DNA from: Syntrophales bacterium
GTDB lineage: Bacteria; Desulfobacterota; Syntrophia; Syntrophales; UBA2192
Length of the DNA stretch: 13,243 nt
Assembly (NCBI GenBank): GCA_025454095.1
Contig: JALOPC010000013.1
Coordinates: 1 to 13,243 of the forward strand
Direction of reading: 5' to 3'
This document shows, in pieces, positions 79 through 13,243 of this stretch. The translations under genes and the position numbers were made by a program. The notes beneath the pieces were generated by a model. The model worked only from the letters and a program-made list of their open reading frames with translations, had not been told where the DNA came from and did not search any database. How positions within the stretch are numbered: the stretch's first letter is position 1; each line of letters starts with the position of its first letter.

Positions 79-1356
79 ATGCCCTACGAATTTTTTGTCA
101 GCCTCCGGTATCTCCGGGCCAGACGGAAACAGGTCTTTGTTTCCATCATCACCTTCATCTCCATGGCGGGCATCCTGCTGGGGGTCGCGGCGCTCATCAT
201 CGTGCTGGCCGTGATGAACGGCTTCGAGAAGGAGCTTCGCGACAAGATTCTGGGGATCAACGCCCACATCATCCTCATGGAGTACACGGGTCCCATGAAG
301 GACCACGACCGCGTCAAGAGCGAGATCGCCTCCGTACCGGGGGTTGTGGCCTCCACGCCGTTCATCTACAGCCAGGCGATGCTGAAAAACGGCGACAGCG
401 TGAGCGGCATCGTCATGCGGGGACTCTCGCCGGCGGATGCCCGGGACGTGATCAATTTGGGCCGGATGCTGGAGGGCCGCCTGGAAAACCTCGCGGCACG
501 GGAACGGGAAGCGCTGCAGATACCCAGGGCGCTGGCCGACGTCCCCGGCATCGTCCTCGGGAAGGAGCTGGCGCGCCACGTGGGGGCGTCCCTCTACGAC
601 GCGGTCCACGTCGTCTCGCCGCAGGGGATCGCCACCCCCCTGGGGATGGTTCCGCGGATGAAGAAATTCGTCGTCGTGGGCATTTTCGAGTCGGGCTTTT
701 ACGAGTACGATTCGAACCTGGCCTACATCGCCCTGCCCGACAGCCAGGAGTTCCTCGGCCTGGGCGACCGGGTCACGGGCCTTGAAATAAAAGTCGATAA
801 CATTTATAAGGCAAGGGAAATCGCCGGGGCGATCGAGATGAAGCTGGGCTACCCCTTCTGGGCGAGGGACTGGATGAAGATGAACCGGAACCTCTTCGCG
901 GCCCTGCGCCTGGAAAAGCGGGTCATGTTCATCATCGTGGGCCTGATCGTGCTCGTGGCGGGCTTCAACATCATCTGCACGCTGATCATGGTCGTCATGG
1001 AGAAGACCAAGGACATCGCGATCCTGAAATCCATGGGCGCCTCGGCGAACAGCATCATGAAGATTTTCATGCTTCAGGGGGTCATCATCGGGGGCATCGG
1101 AACGCTCCTGGGAACCATCCTGGGGCTCACGGTCGCCTGGAACATCGGGCCCATCACCCGGTCCATCGAGAACCTCTTCGGGTTCAAGATCCTGCCCGGG
1201 GACGTCTACTACCTGAGCGAGCTGCCGGCGCTCGTCAACTACGAGGACGTGGCGATCATTGTCGCGGGCAGCCTTCTCGTCAGCCTGCTGGCGACCATCT
1301 ACCCGGCCCGGAACGCGTCGAGGCTTGATCCCGCGGAGGCAATCCGGTATGAGTAA
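79..1356 (+). CDS. lolC: Lipoprotein-releasing ABC transporter permease, LolC/LolE family
   Basis: Inner-membrane permease that, with the ATPase LolD, extracts outer-membrane lipoproteins and passes them to the periplasmic carrier LolA. The 425-residue protein has the MacB/FtsX-type layout: a first membrane helix at about 20-47 (running into [13 protein letters not shown]), a periplasmic domain at about 48-278, and three more helices at about 282-307, 328-355 and 390-408. It ends in the family hallmark PAEAIRYE. The sequence following the second helix, [15 protein letters not shown] (308-322), is the typical coupling region. The length matches LolC/LolE (about 400-415). ATG 79 is the first start after in-frame stops at 34 and 52; a purine-rich AAGGAAGG lies at 54-60, further upstream than ideal. 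The stop overlaps lolD by 8 nt. Only one permease gene is present, so it may act as a homodimer or hybrid LolF-type subunit, unless a second copy lies elsewhere. Codons 235-244 are unusually AT-rich because they overlap a promoter-like element. Confidence 0.93.
782..810 (+). promoter_or_regulatory. Candidate internal sigma70-type promoter within lolC
   Basis: TTGAAA (782-787) and TATAAG (805-810) are separated by exactly 17 nt, matching 10 of 12 consensus positions for a housekeeping sigma factor. A purine-rich stretch at 813-818 would hold the transcription start. The element sits in a patch (781-810) with only 7 G/C of 30 bases, inside a gene that is otherwise very GC-rich, and uses AT-ending codons its surroundings avoid. 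It points towards lolD, bamA and the lpx genes, so it could give them transcription independent of the lolC upstream promoter. Sequence-based only. Confidence 0.45.
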
Positions 1357-2041
1357 GGCGGCGGGCGGCCGGATCGAGATCCGGAACCTCAGCAAGACGT
1401 ACATGATGGACGGCACGCGGATCGACGCCCTGAAAGGGGTCAACCTCGACATCGCCCGGGGCGACTCGCTTGCCATCCTCGGCGTCTCGGGGGCGGGCAA
1501 GAGCACACTGCTGCACATCCTCGGGACGCTGGATCACCCGACGGAGGGGACCTTCCTCTACGACGGGGTGAGCATCTTCGAGTGGAACGAAAAGAAACTG
1601 GCGGAGTTCCGGAACCGGAAAGTGGGGTTCGTCTTCCAGTTCCACCACCTGCTGCCGGAGTTCACGAGCCTCGAGAACACGATGATGCCGGCGCTCATCG
1701 CCGGGCTGACGCGCGGTGAGGCACGCCGAAAGGCCGAGGCCATCCTCGACGAGGTGGGGCTCACGGAGCGGAGGGTCCACAAGCCCGGCGAGCTCTCGGG
1801 CGGCGAGCAGCAGCGGGTGGCCGTGGCGAGGGCCCTCGTGATGGAGCCCGAAATGCTGCTGGCCGACGAGCCGACGGGAAACCTCGACTCGGAGACGGGC
1901 ACGAAAATCCACGAGATGCTCGTCAACCTGAACCGGACCCGGGGGATCACGCTCGTCGTGGTCACCCACAACCAGTCGCTGGCGGACCGCATGTCGCGAT
2001 GCATCGGCTTGCGCGACGGACGGATCGTGAAGGGTGAGTGA
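1349..2041 (+). CDS. lolD: Lipoprotein-releasing system ATP-binding protein LolD
   Basis: Cytoplasmic ATPase that powers lipoprotein release by the Lol permease. The 230-residue protein is a complete single nucleotide-binding domain: Walker [10 protein letters not shown] at 45-53, Q-loop glutamine Q97 in [14 protein letters not shown] signature LSGGEQQ at 149-155, Walker B MLLADEP at 169-175 with catalytic E174, the D-loop GNLD and the switch histidine H207 (VVTHN). The [10 protein letters not shown] stretch is characteristic of LolD among the MacB/LolD/FtsE ATPases. Start ATG 1349 lies inside the end of lolC (8-nt overlap) and has GGAGG at 1335-1339, 9 nt upstream, which argues against longer in-frame versions. 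Its stop sits 1 nt before the bamA ATG, so translation of the three genes is probably coupled. Pairing with lolC separates it from MacB-type export ATPases. Confidence 0.95.
2029..2038 (+). promoter_or_regulatory. Shine-Dalgarno sequence choosing the bamA start
   Basis: GAAGGGTGAG lies at the very end of lolD. Its AAGGG core (2030-2034) is 8 nt before ATG 2043, the usual distance. An in-frame GTG at 2034 would fall within this element and have no ribosome site of its own, so ATG 2043 is preferred. Confidence 0.6.
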
Positions 2042-2042
2042 T

Positions 2043-4691
2043 ATGACCGTACCCGGAAAACCCCGTGCCCTGGCAATACTGTTGATCCTGGCCTGCCTTC
2101 TCGCCGCACCCCTGGAGGCCCTTGCCCAGAGGATCGCCGTCTTCCCCTTCGACATCTACAGCGAGCGGGACGCGACCCTTCTGCGCAACGCCATCTACAA
2201 CAGCATGACCCTCGAGCTCGGCAAGGTCCGGACGGTTCAGGTCGTCCCGAGAGACCAGTTCGCCGCGCTCGTCGGCGGGAAGAAGGCCGACGAGGAGCTC
2301 GCGGTTTCCGTGGGCAGGCAGGTCAAGGCCGACTACGTGATCCTCGGGAGCCTCACCCAGCTCGGCACGCGGGTGAGCCTCGACGCCAAGGCCGTCAACG
2401 TGGAGACGGGCGCCGCGATCACGGGCCTCTTCGCCCAGGGGACGGGCATCGAGAACACGGGGGCCTTCGCGGCCCAGCTGGCGCGGGAGGTCCTCGCCCG
2501 GGTCTCGGGCAGGCAGGTCGTCGCCCGGGTGGAGCTTTCGGGCAACCGCCGGATCGAGAACACCGTCATCTTCAACGCGCTCAAGAGCGCGAAGGGGAAA
2601 CTCTTCTCCGAGGAAGACCTCTCGGCCGACATCCGGGCCATCTACCGGATGGGCTACTTCAGCGACGTGAAGGCCGACGTGACGGACTCGCCGGACGGCA
2701 AGGTGATCACCTTCCTGCTCGACGAGCGCCCCTTCGTCAACGACATCCGCATCAAGGGCAACGAGGCCCTGTCGTCGGACGACATCCGCGGCTCCCTGTC
2801 GTTCAAGGCCAAGCAGGTCTACAACCCCGACCGGATCAAGGCCGACACGGACAAGATCAAGGCCCTCTACGACGACAAGGGGTACTTCAACGCCGAAATC
2901 TCCTTTGCGACGGAGAAGGTCCGGGAGCGGGACATCAACGTCGTCATCGACATCAAGGAGAACGAGCTGCTCTACGTGAAGAGCATCGAGTTCGCAGGCA
3001 ACCAGGCCTTCACGGACAAGGAGTTGAAAAAGCTCATGGAGACCTCGGAGTGGACGATGTTCTCCTGGCTCACGGACTCGGGGCTCCTCAAGAAGGAGAA
3101 GCTGCGCGACGGCCTCAACCGGGTGAAGGTCTTCTACATGAACAACGGATACATCCAGGCCCAGGTGGGCGAGCCGGACATCACCCACGACAAGAAGTGG
3201 ATCTACGTGAAGATCCTGATTTCCGAGGGCAGGCAGTTCAAGGTCGGCAAGGTCGAGATCACGGGTGACGGCATCTCGGTACCGAGGCAGGAGCTCCTCG
3301 ACAGGCTCAACATCCGCAAGAAGGACTACTTCGACCGGGAGGCCATCGCCAAGGACATCGACTACCTCACGCGGATGACCCAGAACGACGGGTATGCCTA
3401 CGCCGAGATCAGCCCAAAGACCCAGACGAATGACGCCGAGCAGAAAGTCGACATCACCTACAACATCAAGAAAGGCAACCTGGTCTATTTCAACCGGGTC
3501 AACATCACCGGCAACACGAAGACGCGCGACAAGGTCATCCGGCGGCAGCTCGATTTCACCGAAGGGGATCTCTACAACAGCGACAAGCTCAAGAACAGCT
3601 ACGCCCGGCTCAACCGGCTGCGCTACTTCGAAGAGGTGAACTTCCAGACCGCCAAGGGACCCGAGGAAAACCTGACGGACATCAACATCGGCGTCAAGGA
3701 GCGCCCGACAGGGCTCTTCTCGATCGGCGCGGGATACAGCGGCCAGGACGGTGCCATGATCATGGCCCAGATCGCCCAGCAGAACCTCTTCGGCCGGGGC
3801 CAGAGCCTGAGTCTCCAGACCTCCCTGGGAACGGAAAACAGCACGATCGACCTCTCCTTCACCGAGCCCTACCTCTTCGACATGCCCCTCTGGATGAAGG
3901 CGGACATCTGGAAGGCCTACCGGGAGTACGACACCTACGATCTCGACACGCGGGGGTTCGGCGTCACCTTCGGCTACCCCGTTTGGGAAAAGATCATGGG
4001 TTATCTCGGCTACAAGTTCGCAATCAACGACGTGACGGACGTGCTTCCCACGGCGGCGCAGGATATCAAGGACCAGCAGGGCGAAACGACCCAGAGCGGC
4101 ATCCTGACGGCTCTGGCCCGGGACACCACCGACGACGCGGTCTTCCCGACCACGGGCTCGCGCAACCGCCTGTCCGGCGATTTCTACGGCGGCGTCTTCG
4201 GAGGGGATGTCGCCTTCGGGAAATACAACGGCGCCACGTCCTGGTTCTTCAAGGTCCCGCCCTTCGGGGAAGACCTCGTCTTTTCGCCCCGCGCCCGGAT
4301 CGGCTATATCCAGGCCTTCGAGGGCAAGGAAATCCCCATCTACGAGCGCTACATCCTGGGCGGCCTCAACTCCCTCCGGGGACTGAAAGACGTGGGGCCA
4401 CGCGATCCCGTGACGGGGGACGTCATCGGCGGCACGACGATGCTGGTCTTCAACTTCGAGTTGATCTTCCCGCTCATCAAGAACGCCGGCATGAAGGGGG
4501 TCGTCTTCTTCGACACGGGCAACGCGTGGGAGAACGAGTACGACCTGGGTGACATGCGGAAAACGGCGGGCGCCGGCATTCGCTGGTACTCCCCCATCGG
4601 GCCGCTGCGACTCGAGTGGGGCTACGTGCTGGACCCGAAAGAAGGGGAGCCGGCCTACCGCTGGGACTTCACGATCGGGTGGTTCATGTAA
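2043..4691 (+). CDS. bamA: Outer-membrane protein assembly factor BamA with extra N-terminal domain
   Basis: Essential Omp85-family beta-barrel that inserts outer-membrane proteins, including LptD. The 882-residue protein has a signal peptide (hydrophobic core about 9-22, likely cleavage after ALA at 28), then an extra domain at about 29-155, five POTRA repeats starting near 158, 230, 309, 398 and 480 (each opening with a strand such as VARVELSGN, VNDIRIKGN or VKSIEFAGN), and a C-terminal barrel at about 557-882. SLRGL at 777-781 is the counterpart of the VRGF loop-6 motif; the end, RWDFTIGWFM, is an aromatic-rich last strand. E. coli BamA is 810 residues and lacks the extra domain, which resembles TolB-N/CsgG/FlgO-type folds (IAVFPF, VVPRDQF, KADYVILGSL, VNVETG). 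ATG 2043 is chosen over GTG 2034 by its ribosome site. It follows lolD by 1 nt and precedes skp, the usual chaperone neighbour. Confidence 0.96.
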   Translation: MTVPGKPRALAILLILACLLAAPLEALAQRIAVFPFDIYSERDATLLRNAIYNSMTLELGKVRTVQVVPRDQFAALVGGKKADEELAVSVGRQVKADYVILGSLTQLGTRVSLDAKAVNVETGAAITGLFAQGTGIENTGAFAAQLAREVLARVSGRQVVARVELSGNRRIENTVIFNALKSAKGKLFSEEDLSADIRAIYRMGYFSDVKADVTDSPDGKVITFLLDERPFVNDIRIKGNEALSSDDIRGSLSFKAKQVYNPDRIKADTDKIKALYDDKGYFNAEISFATEKVRERDINVVIDIKENELLYVKSIEFAGNQAFTDKELKKLMETSEWTMFSWLTDSGLLKKEKLRDGLNRVKVFYMNNGYIQAQVGEPDITHDKKWIYVKILISEGRQFKVGKVEITGDGISVPRQELLDRLNIRKKDYFDREAIAKDIDYLTRMTQNDGYAYAEISPKTQTNDAEQKVDITYNIKKGNLVYFNRVNITGNTKTRDKVIRRQLDFTEGDLYNSDKLKNSYARLNRLRYFEEVNFQTAKGPEENLTDINIGVKERPTGLFSIGAGYSGQDGAMIMAQIAQQNLFGRGQSLSLQTSLGTENSTIDLSFTEPYLFDMPLWMKADIWKAYREYDTYDLDTRGFGVTFGYPVWEKIMGYLGYKFAINDVTDVLPTAAQDIKDQQGETTQSGILTALARDTTDDAVFPTTGSRNRLSGDFYGGVFGGDVAFGKYNGATSWFFKVPPFGEDLVFSPRARIGYIQAFEGKEIPIYERYILGGLNSLRGLKDVGPRDPVTGDVIGGTTMLVFNFELIFPLIKNAGMKGVVFFDTGNAWENEYDLGDMRKTAGAGIRWYSPIGPLRLEWGYVLDPKEGEPAYRWDFTIGWFM

Positions 4692-4697
4692 ACAACA

Positions 4698-4794
4698 GGC
4701 AGAAGGCGTAAGCCAAAAGACAGAAGGCGAAGGGCGAACGGACATGACAAATGAAATCTTGTTCCCTGCCGCCTTTAGCCGTAAGCCCTCTGCC
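4698..4794. repeat. Imperfect inverted repeat with short word repeats, bamA-skp spacer
   Basis: The left arm 4698-4727 and the reverse complement of 4765-4794 agree at 22 of 30 positions, with a 37-nt loop, so the transcript could fold into a long imperfect hairpin. Within it CAGAAGGCG occurs at 4700-4708 and 4721-4729, GTAAGCC at 4708-4714 and 4781-4787, and the right side reads as repeated TTAGCC/TAAGCC words. There is no T-tract, so it is not a typical intrinsic terminator. It could modulate bamA versus skp transcript levels, or be a passive repeat remnant. Confidence 0.6.
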
Positions 4795-4827
4795 CTTAGC
4801 CCATTATTTATCAAGGAGACCCATACC

Positions 4828-5382
4828 ATGAAAAAGCATCTGACCCTCATCGGCCTTCTGGCGATCGCCGCCGTCTTTGCGTTTTCGGCCACGGAGGCCG
4901 CCGCCCAGAAGATCGGCTTCATCAACATGCGGGTGATCATCCACGATTCCGAGGCCGGCAAGAAGGCATCGGTGGAGTTCAAGAAGGAAGTCGAGAAAAA
5001 GAAGTCCGACATCGCCAAGAAGGAAGAGGAACTCAAGAAACTCAAGGACGAACTCGAAAAGCAGAGGTCGGTGCTCACGGCGGATGCCTACCGGGACAAG
5101 GAGGCGGGTTACCAGACCAAGTTCCGCGACTACCAGCGCATGGTCCAGGACGCCAACGAGGCGCTGGCGCAGAAGGAGCAGGCCTTCACGTCGAAGATGA
5201 TCCCCGAGATCCTCAAGGTCGTCCAGAAGGTGGGCAAGGACGGGAAATACGACGCCATTCTCGACCTCAACAACCCCGTCATCGTCTACCACGACCAGGA
5301 GGACAACCTCACGAAGAAGATCATCGAGGAGTACAACAAGGGCGCCGGGAAATCAGCAGCCCCCGCCAAGGGCAAGAAGTAG
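4828..5382 (+). CDS. skp: Periplasmic OmpH/Skp-family chaperone
   Basis: Periplasmic holdase that keeps unfolded outer-membrane proteins soluble on the way to BamA. The 184-residue product has a clear signal peptide (MKKHLTLIGLLAIAAVFAF, cleavage most likely after AAA at 26), a short first strand QKIGFINMRVII typical of OmpH proteins, and a long charged coiled-coil hairpin from about 44 to 135 rich in Lys/Glu heptads, which forms the tentacle of the Skp trimer. A second short strand region (DAILDLNNPVIVYHD) closes the body. The tail is Lys/Ala-rich (KSAAPAKGKK). E. coli Skp is 161 residues, so this is slightly longer. ATG 4828 has a strong AAGGAG at 4813-4818, 9 nt upstream; upstream in-frame codons lack signal-peptide character. 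It is placed between bamA and lpxD, as in many proteobacteria. Confidence 0.93.
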   Translation: MKKHLTLIGLLAIAAVFAFSATEAAAQKIGFINMRVIIHDSEAGKKASVEFKKEVEKKKSDIAKKEEELKKLKDELEKQRSVLTADAYRDKEAGYQTKFRDYQRMVQDANEALAQKEQAFTSKMIPEILKVVQKVGKDGKYDAILDLNNPVIVYHDQEDNLTKKIIEEYNKGAGKSAAPAKGKK

Positions 5383-5399: not shown

Positions 5400-5406
5400 G
5401 GTGATC
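5400..5406 (+). promoter_or_regulatory. Extended anti-SD match (GGTGATC) choosing the lpxD start
   Basis: GGTGATC equals the 3' half of the full Shine-Dalgarno complement AAGGAGGTGATC. In that register the last G of the core is 8 nt before ATG 5410. The in-frame GTG at 5401 lies inside this element, so ATG 5410 is the better start. Confidence 0.45.
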
Positions 5407-5409
5407 TCC

Positions 5410-6441
5410 ATGGGGAAGACCCTCTCCGAAATCGCAGCGTTTCTTCAGGCAGCCGTCGTGGGGGACGGCGCCGTCGAGATCCGCGACATCAAGGGGCTGG
5501 ACGAGGCCGGCGAGGGGGACCTCACGTTCCTCGCCAACCCGAAGTACCGCAAGAAAATCGCCACGACGGCCGCCTCGGCGATCCTCGTGTCGGCGCCCGT
5601 CGAAGGGACGGGCAAGAACTTCATCGTCGTGAAGGACCCCTACGCGGCCCTCGCCCGGCTGCTTGCGCTTTTCTACCCGGAAGAACGCGATTTCCAGGGC
5701 GTGAGCCCCGCGGCCTTCATCGGCCCCGGCGCCCTCGTCGCGGAAGGGGCCACCGTCTACCCGGGGGTCTACGTGGGTGAGGGCGCCCGGGTCGGCCGGG
5801 GCACCGTCCTGTACCCCGGCGTCTACGTCGGGCACGGCGCCTCCGTGGGCGAGGACTGCACCCTGTACCCGAACGTGACGGTCTACCGCCGCTGCCTCAT
5901 CGGCAGCCGCGTGATCCTGCATGCGGGTGTTGTCGTGGGGAGCGACGGGTTCGGGTTCGCCAACCCCGGCATCGAGAACCGCAAGGTTCCCCAGGTGGGC
6001 ATCGTCCAGATCGACGACGACGTGGAGATCCAGGCCAACACGACGATCGACCGGGGCACCCTGGGAAAGACCTGGATCCAGCGCGGCGCCAAGATCGACA
6101 ACCTCGTCCAGATCGCCCACAACGTCGTCATCGGCGAGAACTCGATCGTCGTGGCCCAGGTGGGCATCTCGGGCAGCACCCGTCTGGGCAAGCGCGTCAT
6201 CATCGGCGGCCAGGCGGGGCTCGTGGGGCACATCCACGTCGGCGACAACGTCATGATCGCGGCCCGGGCCGGCATCAACAAGGACATCCCCGCCTCGCGC
6301 ATCATGTCCGGCGCACCGGCCATCCCCCATGCGGAGTGGCTGCGCCTCAACGCCCACATCCTGCGCCTCCCGGAGATGCACAAGACCGTACAGGAACTCC
6401 GGAAGAAGATCGAAGAGCTCGAAAAGAAACTCAACCCGTAA
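5410..6441 (+). CDS. lpxD: UDP-3-acyl-glucosamine N-acyltransferase LpxD
   Basis: Cytoplasmic acyltransferase of the third lipid A step, transferring a 3-hydroxyacyl chain from ACP to the 2-amino group of the LpxC product. The protein has 343 residues (E. coli 341). The N-terminal uridine-binding domain (about 1-95) carries the family signature [11 protein letters not shown] at 36-46. Residues about 98-300 form the left-handed beta helix of hexapeptide repeats, with [12 protein letters not shown] at 231-242; H237 corresponds to the catalytic H239 of E. coli. A C-terminal helix (about 321-342, [17 protein letters not shown]) completes the trimer-associated tail. The start is ATG 5410, set by an extended ribosome site; GTG 5401 would add three residues. 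It lies 27 nt after skp and 15 nt before lpxA. If GnnA/GnnB work as proposed, its natural substrate would be the 3-N-acylated diamino sugar, giving two amide chains per sugar. Confidence 0.96.
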
Positions 6442-6456
6442 GAGAGAACACGGCTT

Positions 6457-7230
6457 ATGAACATACACCCGTCTGCAGTCATATCGCCCGACGCGAAACT
6501 CGCCGAAGGCGTGGAGGTAGGCCCGTTCAGCGTGATCGGGCCCAGCGTCTCGATCGGGAAAGGGACCGTCATCGGCTCCCACGTCGTGATCCAGAGCCAC
6601 ACGGACATCGGCGAGAACAACCGCATCCTCCAGTTCGCCTCCGTGGGGGCCCCGCCCCAGGACCTCAAATACAAGGGCGAGGAGACGCGCGTCGTCATCG
6701 GCAACAACAACACGATCCGCGAATTCGTGACGATCAACCGCTCCACCACGGCCGACATCGGGGTCACGAAGATCGGCAGCAACAACCTGATCATGGCTTA
6801 CTGCCACGTGGCCCACAACTGCCTGCTCGAGGACAACATCGTCATGGCCAACGCGGCCAACCTGGCCGGGCACATCCACGTGGAGCGCTTCGCCATCATC
6901 GGCGGGCTGACCGGCATCCACCAGTTCTCGCGGATCGGGCAGCACTGCATCATCGGCGGGGCCTCCGCGGTGACCAAGGACGTCCCGCCCTACACGACGG
7001 CGGCGGGCCATTACGCCTCGCTCTACGGTCTCAACCTCATCGGCCTGAAGCGCAGGGGCTTCTCCGAGGAGACCATTGCCGCCCTGAAGAAAGCCTACAA
7101 GATCTTCTTCCGCTCGTCGCTCACGGTGGCCAAGGCCGTCGCACAGGCCCGCGCCGAGGTAGCCGACCTGCCCGAAGTGCGGACCTTCATCGAGTTCATC
7201 GAGACGTCGAAGCGGGGAGTCACGAGATAG
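6457..7230 (+). CDS. lpxA: UDP-N-acetylglucosamine (or 3-amino analogue) acyltransferase LpxA
   Basis: First lipid A acyltransferase, loading a 3-hydroxyacyl chain from ACP onto position 3 of the UDP sugar. The 257-residue protein (E. coli 262) has hexapeptide-repeat beta-helix sequence to about residue 185, then the helical tail beginning LKRRGFSEE. Catalytic H120 (in CHVAHNC, matching E. coli H125), H117 (E. coli H122), Q68 in QDLKYKGE and N193 are present. At the acyl-chain ruler, G168 aligns with E. coli G173, consistent with a long chain of about C14 or more, whereas the residue matching E. coli H191 is Y186. ATG 6457 has only a modest purine run (AGAGAG, 6441-6446). fabZ, often found between lpxD and lpxA, is absent. 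Because gnnA and gnnB follow directly, the true acceptor may be UDP-GlcNAc3N, giving an amide rather than an ester. Confidence 0.95.
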
Positions 7231-7264
7231 GGGATCGGGTCTAGGGTATCGGGTATAGGGTTTG
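7231..7264. repeat. Degenerate G-rich heptamer tandem repeat after lpxA
   Basis: Immediately after the lpxA stop the sequence reads as GGGATC, GGGTCTA, GGGTATC, GGGTATA, GGGTTTG: four seven-base units of the form GGGTNTN preceded by one six-base unit. The rest of the 128-nt lpxA-gnnA spacer (to 7358) holds a small possible hairpin (GGTTTGGA and TCCAACC, 7257-7281) and nothing else recognisable. Its role is unknown; the four evenly spaced G-triplets could in principle stack as a weak quadruplex on the coding strand or mRNA. Confidence 0.6.
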
Positions 7265-7358
7265 GAAAAGACCTCCAACCTTCTGACGTTCATGCCCTCT
7301 TCCCGTCGATCCGTCGGACCCGGCAGCATCGCCCGAGAACAGCGATCATGGACAGGAA

Positions 7359-8309
7359 ATGGACAAGCCAATACGCGTGGGCGTGGTGGGGATCGGGCAT
7401 CTCGGGAACTACCACCTCCAGAAATACCAGAAACTCGAGAACGTGAAAATCGTCGGCGTCGCCGACGCGGACCGGTCGAAGGCCGACAAGGCCGCGGCGG
7501 CGTTCGGCTGCACGGTCTTTGCCGATCACCGCGAACTCGTGGAGCACGTGGACGCCGTGAGCGTCACCGTCCCCACCCAGGCCCACCACGCGGTGGCGCG
7601 CGACTTTCTGGCCGCCGGCAGGGACGTGCTGATGGAGAAGCCGTTCACGGCCACCCTGGAGGAGGCCGACGACCTCATCGCGCTGGCCGCGGCGCAGGAC
7701 CTCGTCCTGCAGGTCGGCTTCATCGAGCGGTTCAACCCGGCCATCGTCGCCCTCGACAAGGTGATCCGCCGGCCCCTCTTCATCGAGTCGCACCGGCTTC
7801 ACCCCTTCGTCGAACGGGGCACCGACGTGGACGTCGTCCTCGATCTCATGATCCACGACCTCGACCTCATCCTGCACTACGTGCGCTCCCCCCTGACGAA
7901 CGTGGAAGCCGTCGGGGTTTCCGTCCTGTCGGACAAGGTCGACATCGCCAACGTGCGGCTCACCTTCGAAAACGGCTGCGTGGCCAACATCACCGCGAGC
8001 CGGGTGACCCTCAAGCACATGCAGAAGCTGCGCTTCTTCGGCCTCGAGGGGTACCACTCCATCGATTTCAGCAAGCGCGAGGTTGTCTCGCTGGCGCGCA
8101 GGGAAAAAGAGGGGGGGAAAATGGAGATCGGGCTCAACGACGTCAAGGTCCGCCAGCACGACCCCCTCGAAGAGGAGATCCGCTCGTTCGTCGACGCCGT
8201 CGTGCACCGCACGGCACCCCGCGTCTCGGGGCTCGAGGCCCGGAAATCCCTCGAGCTCGCCCTGCTCATCAACGAGAAGATGAAGACGGGGAGGGACCTC
8301 AAGCTATGA
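7359..8309 (+). CDS. gnnA: Gfo/Idh family UDP-GlcNAc 3-dehydrogenase, GnnA-like
   Basis: NAD(P)-dependent oxidoreductase proposed to oxidise the 3-hydroxyl of UDP-GlcNAc to a 3-keto sugar for transamination by the next gene. The 316-residue protein has an N-terminal Rossmann fold with VGIGHLG at 10-16, VADAD at 34-38, the family motif EKP at 93-95 with the conserved K94, then GFIERFNPA at 120-128 and a C-terminal sugar-binding domain with DLMIHDLDL at 162-170; H166 is the usual catalytic-site histidine of the family. ATG 7359 begins one residue-turn before the first strand and is preceded by AGGA placed too close to be a good ribosome site, so initiation may be weak. It overlaps gnnB by 4 nt (ATGA). 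Similar proteins make 3-keto sugars for O-antigen (WlbA/WbpB), but the location between lpxA and lpxB, as in A. ferrooxidans, favours GnnA. Confidence 0.8.
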   Translation: MDKPIRVGVVGIGHLGNYHLQKYQKLENVKIVGVADADRSKADKAAAAFGCTVFADHRELVEHVDAVSVTVPTQAHHAVARDFLAAGRDVLMEKPFTATLEEADDLIALAAAQDLVLQVGFIERFNPAIVALDKVIRRPLFIESHRLHPFVERGTDVDVVLDLMIHDLDLILHYVRSPLTNVEAVGVSVLSDKVDIANVRLTFENGCVANITASRVTLKHMQKLRFFGLEGYHSIDFSKREVVSLARREKEGGKMEIGLNDVKVRQHDPLEEEIRSFVDAVVHRTAPRVSGLEARKSLELALLINEKMKTGRDLKL

Positions 8310-9406
8310 TCCCCATGGTGGATTTGCGCAGGCAGTACCTGCAGCTCAAGGAAGAGATCGACGCAGCCGTCCTGGACGTGCTGGACAAGACCCAGTTCAT
8401 CCTGGGGCCCAACGTGTCGGAGCTCGAGGCCGAGGTGGCCCGCTACCACGGGGTACCGCACGCCGTCGGCGTGGCCAACGGGACCGACGCCCTGCTGCTC
8501 GCGCTGCGCGCCCTCGGGATCGAAGCGGGCGACGAGATCATCACGACCCCCTTCACCTTCATCGCCACGGCGGAGGTCGCCGGGCTGCTGGGCGCCGTGC
8601 CCGTCTTCGTCGACATCGACCCGAAGACCTTCAACCTCGACCCGGCGCGCCTCGAGGCGGCCGTCACGGAAAAGACGAGGGCGATCATCCCCGTGCACCT
8701 CTTCGGGCAGCCCTGCGACATGGACCCGATCCTCGACGTCGCCAGGAGGCACGGCCTGAAGGTCATCGAGGACTGCGCCCAGGCCTTCGGCGCCCGGTAC
8801 AAGGGGCGGATCGTGGGGACCCTGGGCCATGCGGGCTGCACCAGCTTCTTCCCCAGCAAGAACCTCGCCTGCTACGGCGACGGCGGCATGGTGATCACGG
8901 CCGATGAGGAAACCGACGCCGCGCTGCGTGTGCTGCGCAACCACGGGAGCGCCGTCCGCTACACCCACAGCACCCTGGGCTACAACAGCCGCCTCGACGA
9001 GATCCAGGCGGCCATCGTGCGCGTCAAGCTCCGGCGCATCGACGCCCTCAACGAGGGCCGGCGTCGGGCCGCCGGCCTGTACCGGAAGTCCATCCGACGG
9101 ACCGGCGTCGTGCTGCCGTACGAAGCCGAGGACTGCCGCCACGTCTACCACCAGTTCACCCTCCTCACGGACGAACGCGAGCGGCTCCAGGAGGCGCTCA
9201 CGAAGGCCGGCATCGCCAGCGCCGTCTACTATCCCATCCCCCTGCACCTGCAGGAGGTCTTCCGGAACAGCGCGGCATGCCGCCACGGGGATCTGCCGGC
9301 AAGCGAGGATGCGGCCCGGCGGGTCCTGTCGCTCCCCATGTTCCCGGAAATCACCGAAGAGGAGATCCAGCGGATCAGCGACGTGATCAATGGTGCCACC
9401 GCGTAA
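8306..9406 (+). CDS. gnnB: DegT/DnrJ/EryC1 aminotransferase, GnnB-like (UDP-GlcNAc3N formation)
   Basis: PLP-dependent sugar aminotransferase proposed to convert the 3-keto product of GnnA to UDP-GlcNAc3N, usually with glutamate as amino donor. The 366-residue protein shows the complete fold-type I pattern: MVDLRRQY near the N terminus, ANGTDAL at 58-64 (PLP phosphate binding), TTPFTFIATAE at 80-90, EDCAQAFGA at 155-163 with D156 contacting the pyridine nitrogen, and SFFPSKNLACYGDGG at 180-194 with the Schiff-base lysine K185. ATG 8306 overlaps the gnnA stop as ATGA and has GGGGAGGG at 8288-8294. The 3' end overlaps lpxB by 17 nt. Close relatives such as WbpE/WlbE aminate UDP-3-keto-GlcNAcA for O-antigen, but no C6 dehydrogenase partner is present here. 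Family assignment is firm; substrate is inferred from context. Confidence 0.82.
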   Translation: MIPMVDLRRQYLQLKEEIDAAVLDVLDKTQFILGPNVSELEAEVARYHGVPHAVGVANGTDALLLALRALGIEAGDEIITTPFTFIATAEVAGLLGAVPVFVDIDPKTFNLDPARLEAAVTEKTRAIIPVHLFGQPCDMDPILDVARRHGLKVIEDCAQAFGARYKGRIVGTLGHAGCTSFFPSKNLACYGDGGMVITADEETDAALRVLRNHGSAVRYTHSTLGYNSRLDEIQAAIVRVKLRRIDALNEGRRRAAGLYRKSIRRTGVVLPYEAEDCRHVYHQFTLLTDERERLQEALTKAGIASAVYYPIPLHLQEVFRNSAACRHGDLPASEDAARRVLSLPMFPEITEEEIQRISDVINGATA

Positions 9407-10574
9407 GGAACATCGCCGAGCCGTCATGATCGTGGCGGGCGAGGCCTCGGGAGACCTGCACGGGGCGCACCTCGTCCGCGAGATGAAGGCCGCCGACCCC
9501 TCGCTTTCCTTCTGCGGCGTGGGCGGGCGCAACCTCGAGGAAGAGGGGGTCCGCCTCGTGGCCCGATCCTCCGACATGGCCGTCGTGGGCTTCACGGAGG
9601 TCTTCTCGAAGCTCCGATTCATCGCCGGGGTCTTCTTCCTCCTGCGCCGGATGCTCCGCGAGGAGAACCCGCCGCTGCTCATCCTCATCGACTACCCCGA
9701 CTTCAACCTCCGGCTGGCCGCGGCGGCGAAGAAGGCGGGGGTGCCCGTCTTCTACTACATCAGCCCCCAGGTATGGGCCTGGAGGAAGAACCGGATCCAT
9801 CGCATCCGCGAGGTCGTGGACCGCATGGCCGTGATCCTGCCCTTCGAAAAAGACGTCTATGCGCAGATGGGCGTCGACGTCGACTTCGTGGGCCACCCCC
9901 TGCTGGATGCCGTGGCGCGGACCCGCAGCCGCGAGGAGGCGTTGGCGGCCTTCGGACTGCGCGATGCGCAGCCCATCGTCGCGATCCTCCCCGGCAGCCG
10001 CGAGAAGGAGGTGACGACCCTGCTGCCCGAGATGGCCGGCGCGGCGGAGATCCTCGCCCGGGACTTCCCGGGGGCTCAGTTTGTGCTCCCCCGGGCCGAC
10101 ACGGTGGATCCCGGCCTTGTGCAGGGAATTTTGAGTCGGCAACGCGCAGCGGTCAGGGTCCTGGACGGCCAGATGTACGATGCCGTGGGACTGGCCGATG
10201 CCGCCATGGTGGCCTCCGGCACGGCCACCCTGGAGACGGCCCTGCTGGAGACGCCGATGGTCATCGCCTACCGGATCTCACCGCTCACGGCCGCCGTCGG
10301 CAAGCGGTTCATCCGGGTGGAGCACATCGGTCTGGTCAACCTCATCGCGGGCAAGCGGCTGGCGCCCGAGCTGGTCCAGGAAGACGCGAGCGCCTCGAGG
10401 CTGGCCGCCGAGATCAAGGCGCTCCTCTCGGACCGGGAGCGGCGCGACGCCATCCGCAGCGAGCTGGCCGCCATTCGGCACAAGCTCGGGGAGCCCGGCG
10501 CCGCGCGCCGCGCGGCGGCCATCGCCCTGGGACTGGTGAACAGAGGGGCCGGGGCCGGAGGGGAAAAGGCTTGA
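9390..10574 (+). CDS. lpxB: Lipid A disaccharide synthase LpxB
   Basis: Peripheral inner-membrane glycosyltransferase (family GT19) that condenses a lipid X-type monosaccharide with its UDP derivative to the beta-1,6 disaccharide. The 394-residue protein (E. coli 382) has VAGEASGD at 15-22, IDYPDFN at 100-106 (D101 aligns with E. coli D98), YISPQVWAWR at 123-132, FVGHP at 166-170, ILPGSREKEV at 199-208, SGTATLE at 276-282 and the late signature HIGLVNLIAGKR. ATG 9390 lies within the last codons of gnnB (17-nt overlap); GTGATC just upstream could pair with 16S rRNA. ATG 9426 is an alternative preceded by AAGGAA 15 nt away, but would begin at the first strand with no lead-in. The short tail NRGAGAGGEKA is not conserved. 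The lipid X-forming hydrolase LpxH or LpxI needed to supply its substrate is not in the window. Confidence 0.95.
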   Translation: MVPPRKEHRRAVMIVAGEASGDLHGAHLVREMKAADPSLSFCGVGGRNLEEEGVRLVARSSDMAVVGFTEVFSKLRFIAGVFFLLRRMLREENPPLLILIDYPDFNLRLAAAAKKAGVPVFYYISPQVWAWRKNRIHRIREVVDRMAVILPFEKDVYAQMGVDVDFVGHPLLDAVARTRSREEALAAFGLRDAQPIVAILPGSREKEVTTLLPEMAGAAEILARDFPGAQFVLPRADTVDPGLVQGILSRQRAAVRVLDGQMYDAVGLADAAMVASGTATLETALLETPMVIAYRISPLTAAVGKRFIRVEHIGLVNLIAGKRLAPELVQEDASASRLAAEIKALLSDRERRDAIRSELAAIRHKLGEPGAARRAAAIALGLVNRGAGAGGEKA

Positions 10575-10641: not shown

Positions 10642-12372
10642 ATGAAGCTATACCTTCGACTCCTTCGACTCGTCAAACCGCACTCACCGAGGCTCATCCT
10701 GGCGATGCTCTGCATGGCCGTGGTGGGCGCCGCGACGGCGGCGTCGGCCTACCTGGTCAAGCCGGCCATGGACGACATCTTCCTCGACCGCAACGAGGGG
10801 ATGCTCATCCTCATCCCCATCGCGGTGATCGTCATCTACCTGCTCAAGGGGCTCTGCAACTACGGCCAGACCGTCCTGATGAGCCACATCGGGTTCCGGG
10901 TCATCACGGACCTGCGCAACGACCTCTACCGCCACATCCTGCGCCAGCCCCTGTCCTTCTTCACGAAGCACCCCACGGGGATCCTGATCTCGCGGGTCAC
11001 CAACGACGTCACCTACCTCCAGGGCGCCGTGTCGGAGGCGGTGACGAGCCTGTTGAAAGATTCGTTCACCCTGGTGGGCCTCGTCGTCGTCATCTTCTGG
11101 CGCGACTGGAAGCTCGCGATCATCGCCTCGCTCGTCTTCCCGCTGGCCGTCTACCCCATCGCCCAGTTCGGGCGCCGCATGCGGCGCATCGCCACGGAGT
11201 CCCAGGTCTCCATGGGGGACCTCATCTCGCTGCTGCAGGAAACGATCACGGGAAACCGCATCGTCAAGGCCTTCGGCATGGAGGAGCACGAGAACCGGCG
11301 CTTCGCGAAGGAAAACGAGCGCCAGTACAAGCTCACCATGAAGTCCGTCACGGTCCGCGCGATCTCGAGCCCCCTGATGGAGTTCCTGGGCGGCCTCGGG
11401 ATCGCCGCCATCATCTTCTACGGGGGCTACCAGGTCATCGCCGGGACCTCGACGCCGGGGACCTTTTTCTCGTTTCTCGCGGCGCTGCTCATGCTCTACG
11501 AGCCCGTCAAGCGGCTCACGAACGTGAACAACACGATCCAGCAGGGCCTCGCCGGCGCCGAGCGGATTTTCGAGATCCTCGACACGGAGCCCGCCATTCA
11601 GAACGGCCCCGGGGCCGCGGAGCTTCCCCCGATCCGGGAGGAGATCTCCATCGAACGCGTCACCTTCCGCTACGACGAGGCGCCGGTTCTGCGCGACGTG
11701 TCCCTGAAGATCCGGGCCGGCGAGGTGATCGCCTTCGTCGGGATGAGCGGCGGCGGCAAGACGACTCTTGTGAACCTCATCCCCCGCTTCTACGACGTCA
11801 ACGAGGGCCGCGTCGCCGTCGACGGCACGGACATCCGCACCGTGACACTCGAGTCTCTCCGGGCCCAGATCGGGATCGTGACCCAGCAGACGATCCTCTT
11901 CAACGACACCGTCCGGGGCAACATCGCCTACGGGGACGTCCGCCGAAGCGACGAGGACGTCATCCGGGCGGCAAAGGCGGCCAACGCCCACGACTTCATC
12001 CTGAAGCTCCCCCAGGGGTACGACACGGTGATCGGGGAGCAGGGAATCAAGCTCTCGGGCGGCGAGAGGCAGCGCATCTCCATCGCGCGGGCCCTCCTGA
12101 AGGACGCCCCCATTCTCATCCTCGACGAGGCCACCTCGTCGCTCGACACGGAGTCCGAGATCGAGGTCCAGGACGCCCTCGAGAAGCTGATGAAGGGCCG
12201 CACGACCCTCGTCATCGCCCACCGCCTCTCCACGATCCGCAACGCCGACCGGATCATCGCGCTCGTGGACGGGCGGATCGTCGAGGAGGGGACCCACGAG
12301 AGCCTCATGGAGAAGAAGGGCGAATACTTCAAGCTGCACAACCTGCAGTTCAAGGACGACGCGCCGGGATAG
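10642..12372 (+). CDS. msbA: Lipid A export ATP-binding/permease protein MsbA
   Basis: Homodimeric ABC exporter that flips core-lipid A across the inner membrane. The 576-residue protein (E. coli 582) is a half-transporter: about six membrane helices in residues 1-310, then a nucleotide-binding domain with Walker A GMSGGGKTT at 367-375, Q-loop at Q415 (TQQTILFNDTV), ABC signature LSGGERQ at 471-477, Walker B ILILDEATS at 491-499 with E496, and switch H527. QTILFNDTVRGNIAYG and ISIARALLKDAPILILDEATSSLD-type sequence are typical of MsbA. The residue after the first Walker glycine is Met rather than the commoner Arg or Ser. ATG 10642 has GGAG at 10627-10630, 11 nt upstream. It lies 67 nt after lpxB, with a candidate promoter between them, and 64 nt before lpxK. 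Membership of the lipid A cluster supports MsbA over a general multidrug exporter. Confidence 0.93.
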   Translation: MKLYLRLLRLVKPHSPRLILAMLCMAVVGAATAASAYLVKPAMDDIFLDRNEGMLILIPIAVIVIYLLKGLCNYGQTVLMSHIGFRVITDLRNDLYRHILRQPLSFFTKHPTGILISRVTNDVTYLQGAVSEAVTSLLKDSFTLVGLVVVIFWRDWKLAIIASLVFPLAVYPIAQFGRRMRRIATESQVSMGDLISLLQETITGNRIVKAFGMEEHENRRFAKENERQYKLTMKSVTVRAISSPLMEFLGGLGIAAIIFYGGYQVIAGTSTPGTFFSFLAALLMLYEPVKRLTNVNNTIQQGLAGAERIFEILDTEPAIQNGPGAAELPPIREEISIERVTFRYDEAPVLRDVSLKIRAGEVIAFVGMSGGGKTTLVNLIPRFYDVNEGRVAVDGTDIRTVTLESLRAQIGIVTQQTILFNDTVRGNIAYGDVRRSDEDVIRAAKAANAHDFILKLPQGYDTVIGEQGIKLSGGERQRISIARALLKDAPILILDEATSSLDTESEIEVQDALEKLMKGRTTLVIAHRLSTIRNADRIIALVDGRIVEEGTHESLMEKKGEYFKLHNLQFKDDAPG

Positions 12373-12436: not shown

Positions 12437-13243
12437 GTGGAAGCCCTGATCCGAAACATGTGGGGGGACCCCCGGAACGAGTTCCGCAGGCCTCTCCACA
12501 TCTTTTTTTATCTGCTCTCGCTGCCCTACGGGGCCGCGGTCCGCGCGCGGAACCGCCTGTTCGACCTCGGCGCGCTGCCCCAGGAAGACGCCGGCTGCCC
12601 CGTGGTGAGCGTGGGCAATCTCACCGTGGGGGGCACGGGCAAGACGCCCATGACGATCCGGGTGGCGGGCATGCTGAGAGAGCGGGGCATGCGTCCCGCG
12701 GTTCTGAGCCGCGGCTACGGAGGGAAGAGCACGGCCGGCGTGCTCGTCGTCTCCGACGGCAGGCAGACCCTCGCGGGACCGGACGAGGCGGGCGACGAGC
12801 CCGTGCTCATCGCGCGCCGCCTGCCGGGTGTCCCCGTGCTGGCGGGGGCGAAACGGGCGCTCACGGGACGGTATGCCCGGGAAAATTTCGGCGCCGACGT
12901 GCTCGTGCTCGACGACGGGTTCCAGCACCGCTGGATCCGCCGCGATCTCGACATCGTGCTGCTCGACAGCCGCGAGCCCCTGGGAAACGGCTTCCTCCTG
13001 CCGCGGGGCTTCCTCCTCCCGCGGGGTCCCCTGCGGGAGCCGCCCGCCTCCCTCGAGCGCGCCGGCGTCGTCGTGCTGACCCGGTCGGAGGGCCGAACCG
13101 AGCCTCTCGACGGGGGCCTCGCGGGACTCGTTGCCGGGCGACCTGTGCTGCGGACGCGTATCCGGCCGACGACGCTCGTCGCAACGGACGGCACCGAGAT
13201 GCCCCTTGCGCATCTGGCGGGCAGAACGGTCTTCGCCTTCGCG
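12437..13243 (+). CDS. lpxK: Tetraacyldisaccharide 4'-kinase LpxK, 3' end beyond the window
   Basis: Membrane-associated kinase that adds the 4'-phosphate to the lipid A disaccharide. The 269 residues visible lack the C-terminal part of a family usually about 320-350 long. They include an N-terminal membrane-anchoring helix (about 20-36), the P-loop VGNLTVGGTGKTP at 59-71 with K69, LSRGYGGK at 90-97, GDEP at 119-122, and LDDGFQHRWIRRDLDIVLLD at 158-177, all LpxK signatures. GTG 12437 is chosen because the resulting start (VEALIRNMW) aligns with E. coli MIEKIW; AGGTGA at 12419-12424 is its possible ribosome site. ATG 12458 is an in-frame alternative eight codons shorter. Residues 186-197 contain a tandem FLLPRG duplication. 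waaA/kdtA, which often sits between msbA and lpxK, is absent: only 64 nt separate them. Confidence 0.95.
   Translation, partial: MEALIRNMWGDPRNEFRRPLHIFFYLLSLPYGAAVRARNRLFDLGALPQEDAGCPVVSVGNLTVGGTGKTPMTIRVAGMLRERGMRPAVLSRGYGGKSTAGVLVVSDGRQTLAGPDEAGDEPVLIARRLPGVPVLAGAKRALTGRYARENFGADVLVLDDGFQHRWIRRDLDIVLLDSREPLGNGFLLPRGFLLPRGPLREPPASLERAGVVVLTRSEGRTEPLDGGLAGLVAGRPVLRTRIRPTTLVATDGTEMPLAHLAGRTVFAFA
12992..13027 (+). repeat. In-frame 18-nt tandem duplication within lpxK
   Basis: 12992-13009 and 13010-13027 are identical at 16 of 18 bases, the two differences being synonymous (CTG/CTC and GGC/GGT). Each encodes FLLPRG. Most LpxK proteins have one copy, in the form GNG-xLLPxGPLRE, so this is a six-residue insertion that keeps the frame. 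Confidence 0.85.

Follow-up and report, generated by a model that had tools for sequence, protein, structure and literature searches.

A stretch of 13,243 nucleotides (nt) that makes up all of contig C178 in the genome of a Syntrophales bacterium (JALOPC010000013.1 in assembly GCA_025454095.1; hereafter the window) carries two genes, gnnA and gnnB, between lpxA and lpxB in an operon of lipid A genes. This arrangement, which had been described in an earlier note made from the letters of the window, was confirmed, and on re-reading of the sequence the coordinates, the 4-nt overlap of gnnA with gnnB, the 17-nt overlap of gnnB with lpxB and the lysines K94 and K185 were all correct. Because both predicted enzymes group with GnnA/GnnB and are encoded among lpx genes, the best reading of the pair, and one that we consider probable, is a pathway to the 3-amino derivative (UDP-GlcNAc3N) of uridine diphosphate N-acetylglucosamine (UDP-GlcNAc) that feeds lipid A, whose acyl chains at position 3 and/or 3' would be amide-linked. 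The features of the operon in the window are the following.

5401..6441, + strand: lpxD, UDP-3-O-acyl-glucosamine N-acyltransferase (NCBIfam TIGR01853, 370 bits, cut-off 242.5)
6457..7230, + strand: lpxA, acyl-ACP (acyl carrier protein)--UDP-GlcNAc acyltransferase, with an E. coli-like loop (NCBIfam NF003657, 385 bits, cut-off 226)
7231..7358, + strand: lpxA-gnnA spacer, 128 nt
7359..8309, + strand: gnnA, predicted Gfo/Idh/MocA-family UDP-GlcNAc 3-dehydrogenase, 316 amino acids (EKP lysine K94, H166; PF01408)
8306..9406, + strand: gnnB, DegT-family pyridoxal phosphate-dependent aminotransferase, 366 amino acids (PF01041, 434 bits; Schiff-base K185; GnnB clade, 100/98)
9390..10574, + strand: lpxB, lipid-A-disaccharide synthase (TIGR00215, 329 bits, cut-off 190)
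10642..12372, + strand: msbA, lipid A flippase (TIGR02203, 646 bits, cut-off 602)
12437..13243, + strand: lpxK, tetraacyldisaccharide 4'-kinase, truncated at the contig end (TIGR00682, 165 bits, cut-off 92)

The reading frames of gnnA and gnnB are both open and intact, and the sequence ATGA at 8306-8309 places the start codon of gnnB within the stop of gnnA. The overlap of gnnB with lpxB holds given the lpxB start at ATG 9390; an alternative start at ATG 9426 would leave no overlap, and the LpxB codons before 9426 are retained in five relatives of the genus (tblastn alignments from LpxB residue 1, loci L003-L007). The position of the pair inside an lpx operon was verified with NCBIfam and Pfam models, which back the identities of the flanking lpxD, lpxA, lpxB, msbA and lpxK. 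The guess that the DNA came from a member of the Desulfobacterota also fits, as proteins with 91-93% identity to GnnA carry the labels Syntrophales or Syntrophaceae. The order and phylum names used below for genomes were likewise deduced from the labels of near-identical proteins and of named loci.

GnnA and GnnB of Acidithiobacillus ferrooxidans synthesize UDP-GlcNAc3N, the role of GnnB having been shown biochemically, and the enzymes WlbA/WbpB and WlbC/WbpE, which bring about 3-amination of UDP-N-acetylglucosaminuronic acid (UDP-GlcNAcA) for O-antigen, belong to the same two families and follow the same logic of 3-oxidation and 3-transamination. Phylogenetic placement against these systems, which had been proposed as a check, set the window's proteins with GnnA and GnnB. 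GnnA was nearer to the characterised GnnAs than to other sugar dehydrogenases, WlbA included, and E93-K94-P95 was invariant in the GnnA alignments (A1, A4). K94, D162 and H166, the last of which we take to be the catalytic histidine of GnnA, were identical in 49/49 rows from gnnAB loci and in 61/61 rows of GnnA encoded without an adjacent gnnB (orphan GnnA). Likewise, the Schiff-base lysine K185 was invariant in GnnB alignment A3, and all 39 gnnA-adjacent rows formed, together with a protein from genome G096, a GnnB clade with support of 100/98 that excluded WbpE. In a larger tree of 156 rows, made with a quick method without bootstrap, the GnnB clade comprised 41 rows, including a long row from G089, with support of 89. 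Short rows were dropped from the GnnB tree (L029 and L032) and the GnnA tree (L124), and L063, L065 and L092 were omitted from the latter as repeats.

These placements bear on the alternative that gnnAB serve O-antigen or capsule by making a UDP-3-amino sugar, their location in the lpx operon being accidental. O-antigen clusters commonly contain DegT and Gfo/Idh enzymes of such types, and among the 36 GnnB-like proteins placed that are not adjacent to gnnA, 14 have Gfo/Idh genes nearby that are only distantly related to gnnA. Of the 36, that of G096 alone joined the GnnB clade. The position of GnnB outside the WbpE clade, the greater closeness of GnnA to GnnA than to WlbA and the conservation of the operon position of gnnAB across the order argue against this alternative, which we regard as very improbable.

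In the UDP-GlcNAc3N pathway that we favor, GnnA with nicotinamide adenine dinucleotide (NAD+) would oxidize the 3-hydroxyl of UDP-GlcNAc, GnnB would transaminate the 3-ketone at the expense of glutamate, the neighboring LpxA would N-acylate the UDP-GlcNAc3N formed, and the downstream lipid A pathway would carry the product on, placing amide-linked chains at position 3 and/or 3'. A number of points weigh against this reading. Neither GnnA nor GnnB of the window reached an NCBIfam equivalog cut-off, the top-scoring model for GnnA being NF040723 (archaeal UDP-GlcNAc 3-dehydrogenase), at 219.8 bits against a cut-off of 450. The GnnB trees were built without the GnnB of A. ferrooxidans, and the GnnA of that species, on a long branch, lies in the Geobacter/gammaproteobacterial part of the tree, where it groups with the GnnA of Geobacter/Geobacteraceae, whereas the Syntrophales GnnA forms a branch apart. 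Eleven of the 31 gnnA-bearing Syntrophales genomes have no gnnB next to gnnA, so the pair is not obligatory. The LpxA loop of the window is of E. coli type and differs from that of 3hsq, which we take to be the Leptospira LpxA selective for UDP-GlcNAc3N, and a column-by-column comparison of LpxA with gnnA status (66 rows with gnnA, 12 without) gave a best p of 1.3e-4 in 1455 tests, which is not significant, with no active-site position standing out. Finally, the lipid A of Desulfovibrio desulfuricans is described in an excerpt of PMC3354558 as a disaccharide of plain glucosamine whose chains are ester-bound, which calls for caution about assuming 2,3-diamino-2,3-dideoxyglucose (GlcN3N) in all relatives.

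An LpxA that accepts UDP-GlcNAc3N is expected where the pathway supplies lipid A. Prediction of LpxA specificity from sequence was dropped because there was no usable residue, and since the LpxA columns gave no discriminating residue and the loop is E. coli-type, a fully diaminoglucose backbone cannot be claimed. The earlier note's diaminoglucose lipid A is supported as regards UDP-GlcNAc3N, on the strength of the clades and the embedding among lpx genes; the four amide-linked primary chains that it also predicted are not supported, as LpxA selectivity is unreadable from sequence, and neither is its suggestion that amide chains may matter for membrane durability. As a sub-case of the favored explanation, with which its likelihood overlaps, it is possible that UDP-GlcNAc3N is made and that LpxA also takes UDP-GlcNAc, giving a hybrid or mixed lipid A. 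The E. coli-like loop is in keeping with this, as are the hybrid GlcN3N/glucosamine backbones of Campylobacter jejuni and Capnocytophaga canimorsus (excerpts of PMC7956469 and PMC3342949); the embedding in the operon, which suggests steady co-expression, speaks against it. The loop is one residue longer in 3hsq and in the LpxA adjoining gnnAB in two Rhodocyclales (L117 and L162), in both of which this extra LpxA, with its 3hsq-like loop, lies directly after gnnA-gnnB. Two LpxA genes were also seen at one Ectothiorhodospiraceae locus (the loci with an extra LpxA are L117, L162, L122 and L058), and a second LpxA, of 35-42% identity, occurs in ten genomes of the phylum sample described below.

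The distribution of the genes within the order was determined in the window's own genome and 40 relatives. Matches to gnnA were found in 31 of the 41 genomes (E <= 1e-20) and to lpxA in 39 (E <= 1e-40), and gnnB lies behind gnnA in 20 of the 31. Among the ten genomes with no gnnA match, the absence of gnnA is not established in three: the contigs of G007 and G008 break off at lpxA or within it, and in G039 lpxA itself was not matched. Apparent gnnB lesions in G005 and G022 were runs of N in the assembly, and both were reclassified as gnnAB. In genome G006, which belongs to the window's genus and is estimated to be 100% complete, gnnB is cleanly deleted between gnnA and lpxB, and G036 has a gnnB remnant of ~75 codons, in three pieces in one frame and without the lysine, for which an assembly fault is possible. 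In eight of the 11 gnnB-less genomes, these two included, nothing matched the window's GnnB at E <= 1e-60. An aminotransferase profile search found DegT paralogues in seven of the eight (strong in G006, G011, G025 and G035, E 1e-105 to 1e-110; weak in G013, G019 and G036, 1e-61 to 1e-68) and none in G028, which leaves room for a distant partner in most of these genomes. The four strong paralogues all fall in a W2 sub-clade with WbpE, which was not adopted as the partner, as it is also present in gnnAB genomes (G004 and G005) and in G010 and G029, which have no gnnA match.

The operon has been rearranged in two further relatives. In G012, the gnnA-gnnB-lpxB block is detached from lpxA and lies in a different neighborhood, with identities to the window of 79, 76 and 68%; in other families GnnA is 61-67% identical, most GnnB proteins are 63-68% and full-length LpxB is 41-59%. 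Judged from these sequences, the block was likely acquired by horizontal transfer. The usual site of lpxB in this genome, between lpxA and msbA, shows no lpxB match (L048 on contig C83; L047 on C47), and the cassette looks to have replaced the native lpxB. At L055 (contig C2 of G021), lpxA is followed after ~200 nt by msbA, gnnA, gnnB and lpxB being jointly gone from the operon (lpxB was not searched for elsewhere), and G037 (L061), of the same family, has all three in the operon.

Across the phylum, gnnA was found in 108 of 118 sampled genomes (E <= 1e-40) and lpxA in 113; gnnA occurs in 107 of those 113 and in one of the five without lpxA (Fisher p 1.3e-4, relatedness uncorrected). By coordinates, gnnB adjoins gnnA in at least 10 of the 108, among the matches listed and with losses at contig ends not looked for. 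Orphan gnnA is found in operons of the type lpxA-lpxI-gnnA-lpxB in other Desulfobacterota, Nitrospirota and Omnitrophota, where it lies next to lpxB and, unlike in the window, has no gnnB beside it (lpxI was identified by where the gene lies and how it begins, as at L101). Among the named loci, the best 80 of 580, orphan gnnA beside lpxB was also observed in Nitrospirota, Omnitrophota, Verrucomicrobiota and Zixibacteria. The orphan GnnAs mostly have 43-52% identity to that of the window and share its catalytic residues; since K94, D162 and H166 are all retained, they look like working dehydrogenases. The ratio of nonsynonymous to synonymous substitution (dN/dS) of gnnA was 0.108-0.189 in the six pairs with G006, values that also cover the time preceding the loss of gnnB, and 0.106-0.247 in the remaining 15 pairs within the genus; it was 0.104 between the orphans G019 and G035 of one family, at a dS of 1.77 that is close to saturation. 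By this measure, constraint on gnnA is not relaxed following gnnB loss.

The rarity of gnnB beside a widespread gnnA, the deletion in G006 and the remnant in G036, the retained residues and the low dN/dS of the orphans all favor another explanation, namely that GnnA has a lipid A role with no need of GnnB, acting alone or with another aminotransferase, and that gnnB is an accessory in some lineages, that of the window included. The pair of the window is nevertheless intact and coupled, and the DegT paralogues of most gnnB-less Syntrophales, including G006, could act as GnnB; we consider this explanation unlikely.

A candidate for such another aminotransferase emerged from the 156-row tree, which resolved three related groups: the GnnB clade, a clade of 33 rows that includes WbpE, with support of 100, and a clade S of 47 rows, with support of 98. 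Clade S holds one row each from 47 genomes of the phylum sample, all of which have gnnA and none gnnB beside it, amounting to 47 of the 98 orphan-gnnA genomes among the matches listed. No S-clade protein was placed from the 10 gnnAB genomes among the matches listed or from the 10 gnnA-less genomes (47/98 versus 0/20, p 2e-5), a 394-bit protein of the gnnA-less G138 having been left unplaced and G060, with a strong S-type score of 618 bits, standing outside the 47. This association counts in favor of a role of GnnA independent of GnnB. At the family level the counts were 25/51 versus 0/6 (p 0.03), with family f14 on both sides. Because lpxA, too, is missing from four of the 10 genomes without gnnA, the comparison was also made with the six that have it, which gave p 0.03. 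Within family f68 (seven genomes), S did not follow gnnA: G156-G159 have gnnA with no S-level match and G136 and G160 have such a match, and these four gnnA-bearing genomes argue that S is not required. No Gfo/Idh gene was found near the S gene at the seven S loci whose surroundings were read, and no S-clade protein in the 41 Syntrophales-set genomes, whose orphans are therefore not explained by S. As a lead, clade S is a possible replacement partner for GnnB where gnnB does not adjoin gnnA, which covers about half of such genomes. We tentatively suggest, with considerable doubt, that GnnA belongs to the lipid A core of nearly the whole phylum and has exchanged its aminotransferase: for an unlinked enzyme of the unassigned clade S in those genomes, for a GnnB encoded in the operon in Syntrophales and Geobacter relatives, and, in some Syntrophales, for a distant enzyme or none at all. 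GlcN3N lipid A would in that case be the norm in the phylum.

The novelty that the earlier note implied is lessened by these distributions, as gnnA is widespread in the phylum and gnnAB pairs are also present in Geobacter lpx operons; the pair described here is a further case of a known type of gene pair. In Geobacter/Geobacteraceae (L097, L098, L099 and L104) the order lpxA-gnnA-gnnB-lpxB is the same as in the window, and GnnB has 56-59% identity to that of the window. According to excerpts of the literature (PMC8036547, PMC3342949, PMC7663294, PMC7956469, PMC10248169, PMC3087551, PMC3333781, PMC4641369 and PMC11123243, besides those cited elsewhere in this text), GlcN3N lipid A is known in several phyla; in Mesorhizobium loti, gnnA and gnnB are linked neither to one another nor to lpx genes (PMC5644692), and a GnnA structure paper is cited in the reference list of PMC8549069. 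Our literature search found no description of an operon combining lpxA, lpxI and lpxB with a Gfo oxidoreductase and, among the matches listed, no mention of gnnA for Desulfovibrio, Syntroph or Geobacter.

Elsewhere in the window, a scan of the spacer at 7231-7358 found no sigma-70-like promoter and no terminator-like site, and an Rfam scan of the window gave no match at gathering scores. A G-rich imperfect repeat, GGGATCGGGTCTAGGGTATCGGGTATAGGG, occupies 7231-7265, immediately 3' of the lpxA stop. As read by eye, the region 6442-7358 differs from L101 in having neither fabZ between lpxD and lpxA nor lpxI between lpxA and gnnA. LpxI (PF06230) was found in none of the 41 Syntrophales-set genomes, which calls for a different UDP-diacylglucosamine hydrolase (the search did not extend to LpxH or LpxG). 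Upstream of the operon, 79-5382 contains lolC (NCBIfam lolCE, above cut-off) and, read from open reading frames only, lolD, bamA and a skp/ompH-like gene; genes for lipoprotein export, outer-membrane assembly and lipid A are thus contiguous in the window.

Alone, the gnnAB pair predicts amide-linked lipid A in syntrophic anaerobes. What stands out beyond it is that nearly all sampled genomes of the phylum that bear lpx genes have GnnA, mostly without adjacent GnnB, a lack that extends to the window's own genus, and that GnnA is conserved after gnnB loss. Should the product of GnnA serve the whole phylum, the lipid A chemistry of this large environmental group would depart from the textbook form. 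That the dehydrogenase stays conserved once its partner gene is gone, together with a candidate replacement enzyme, opens the way to a direct enzymatic test.
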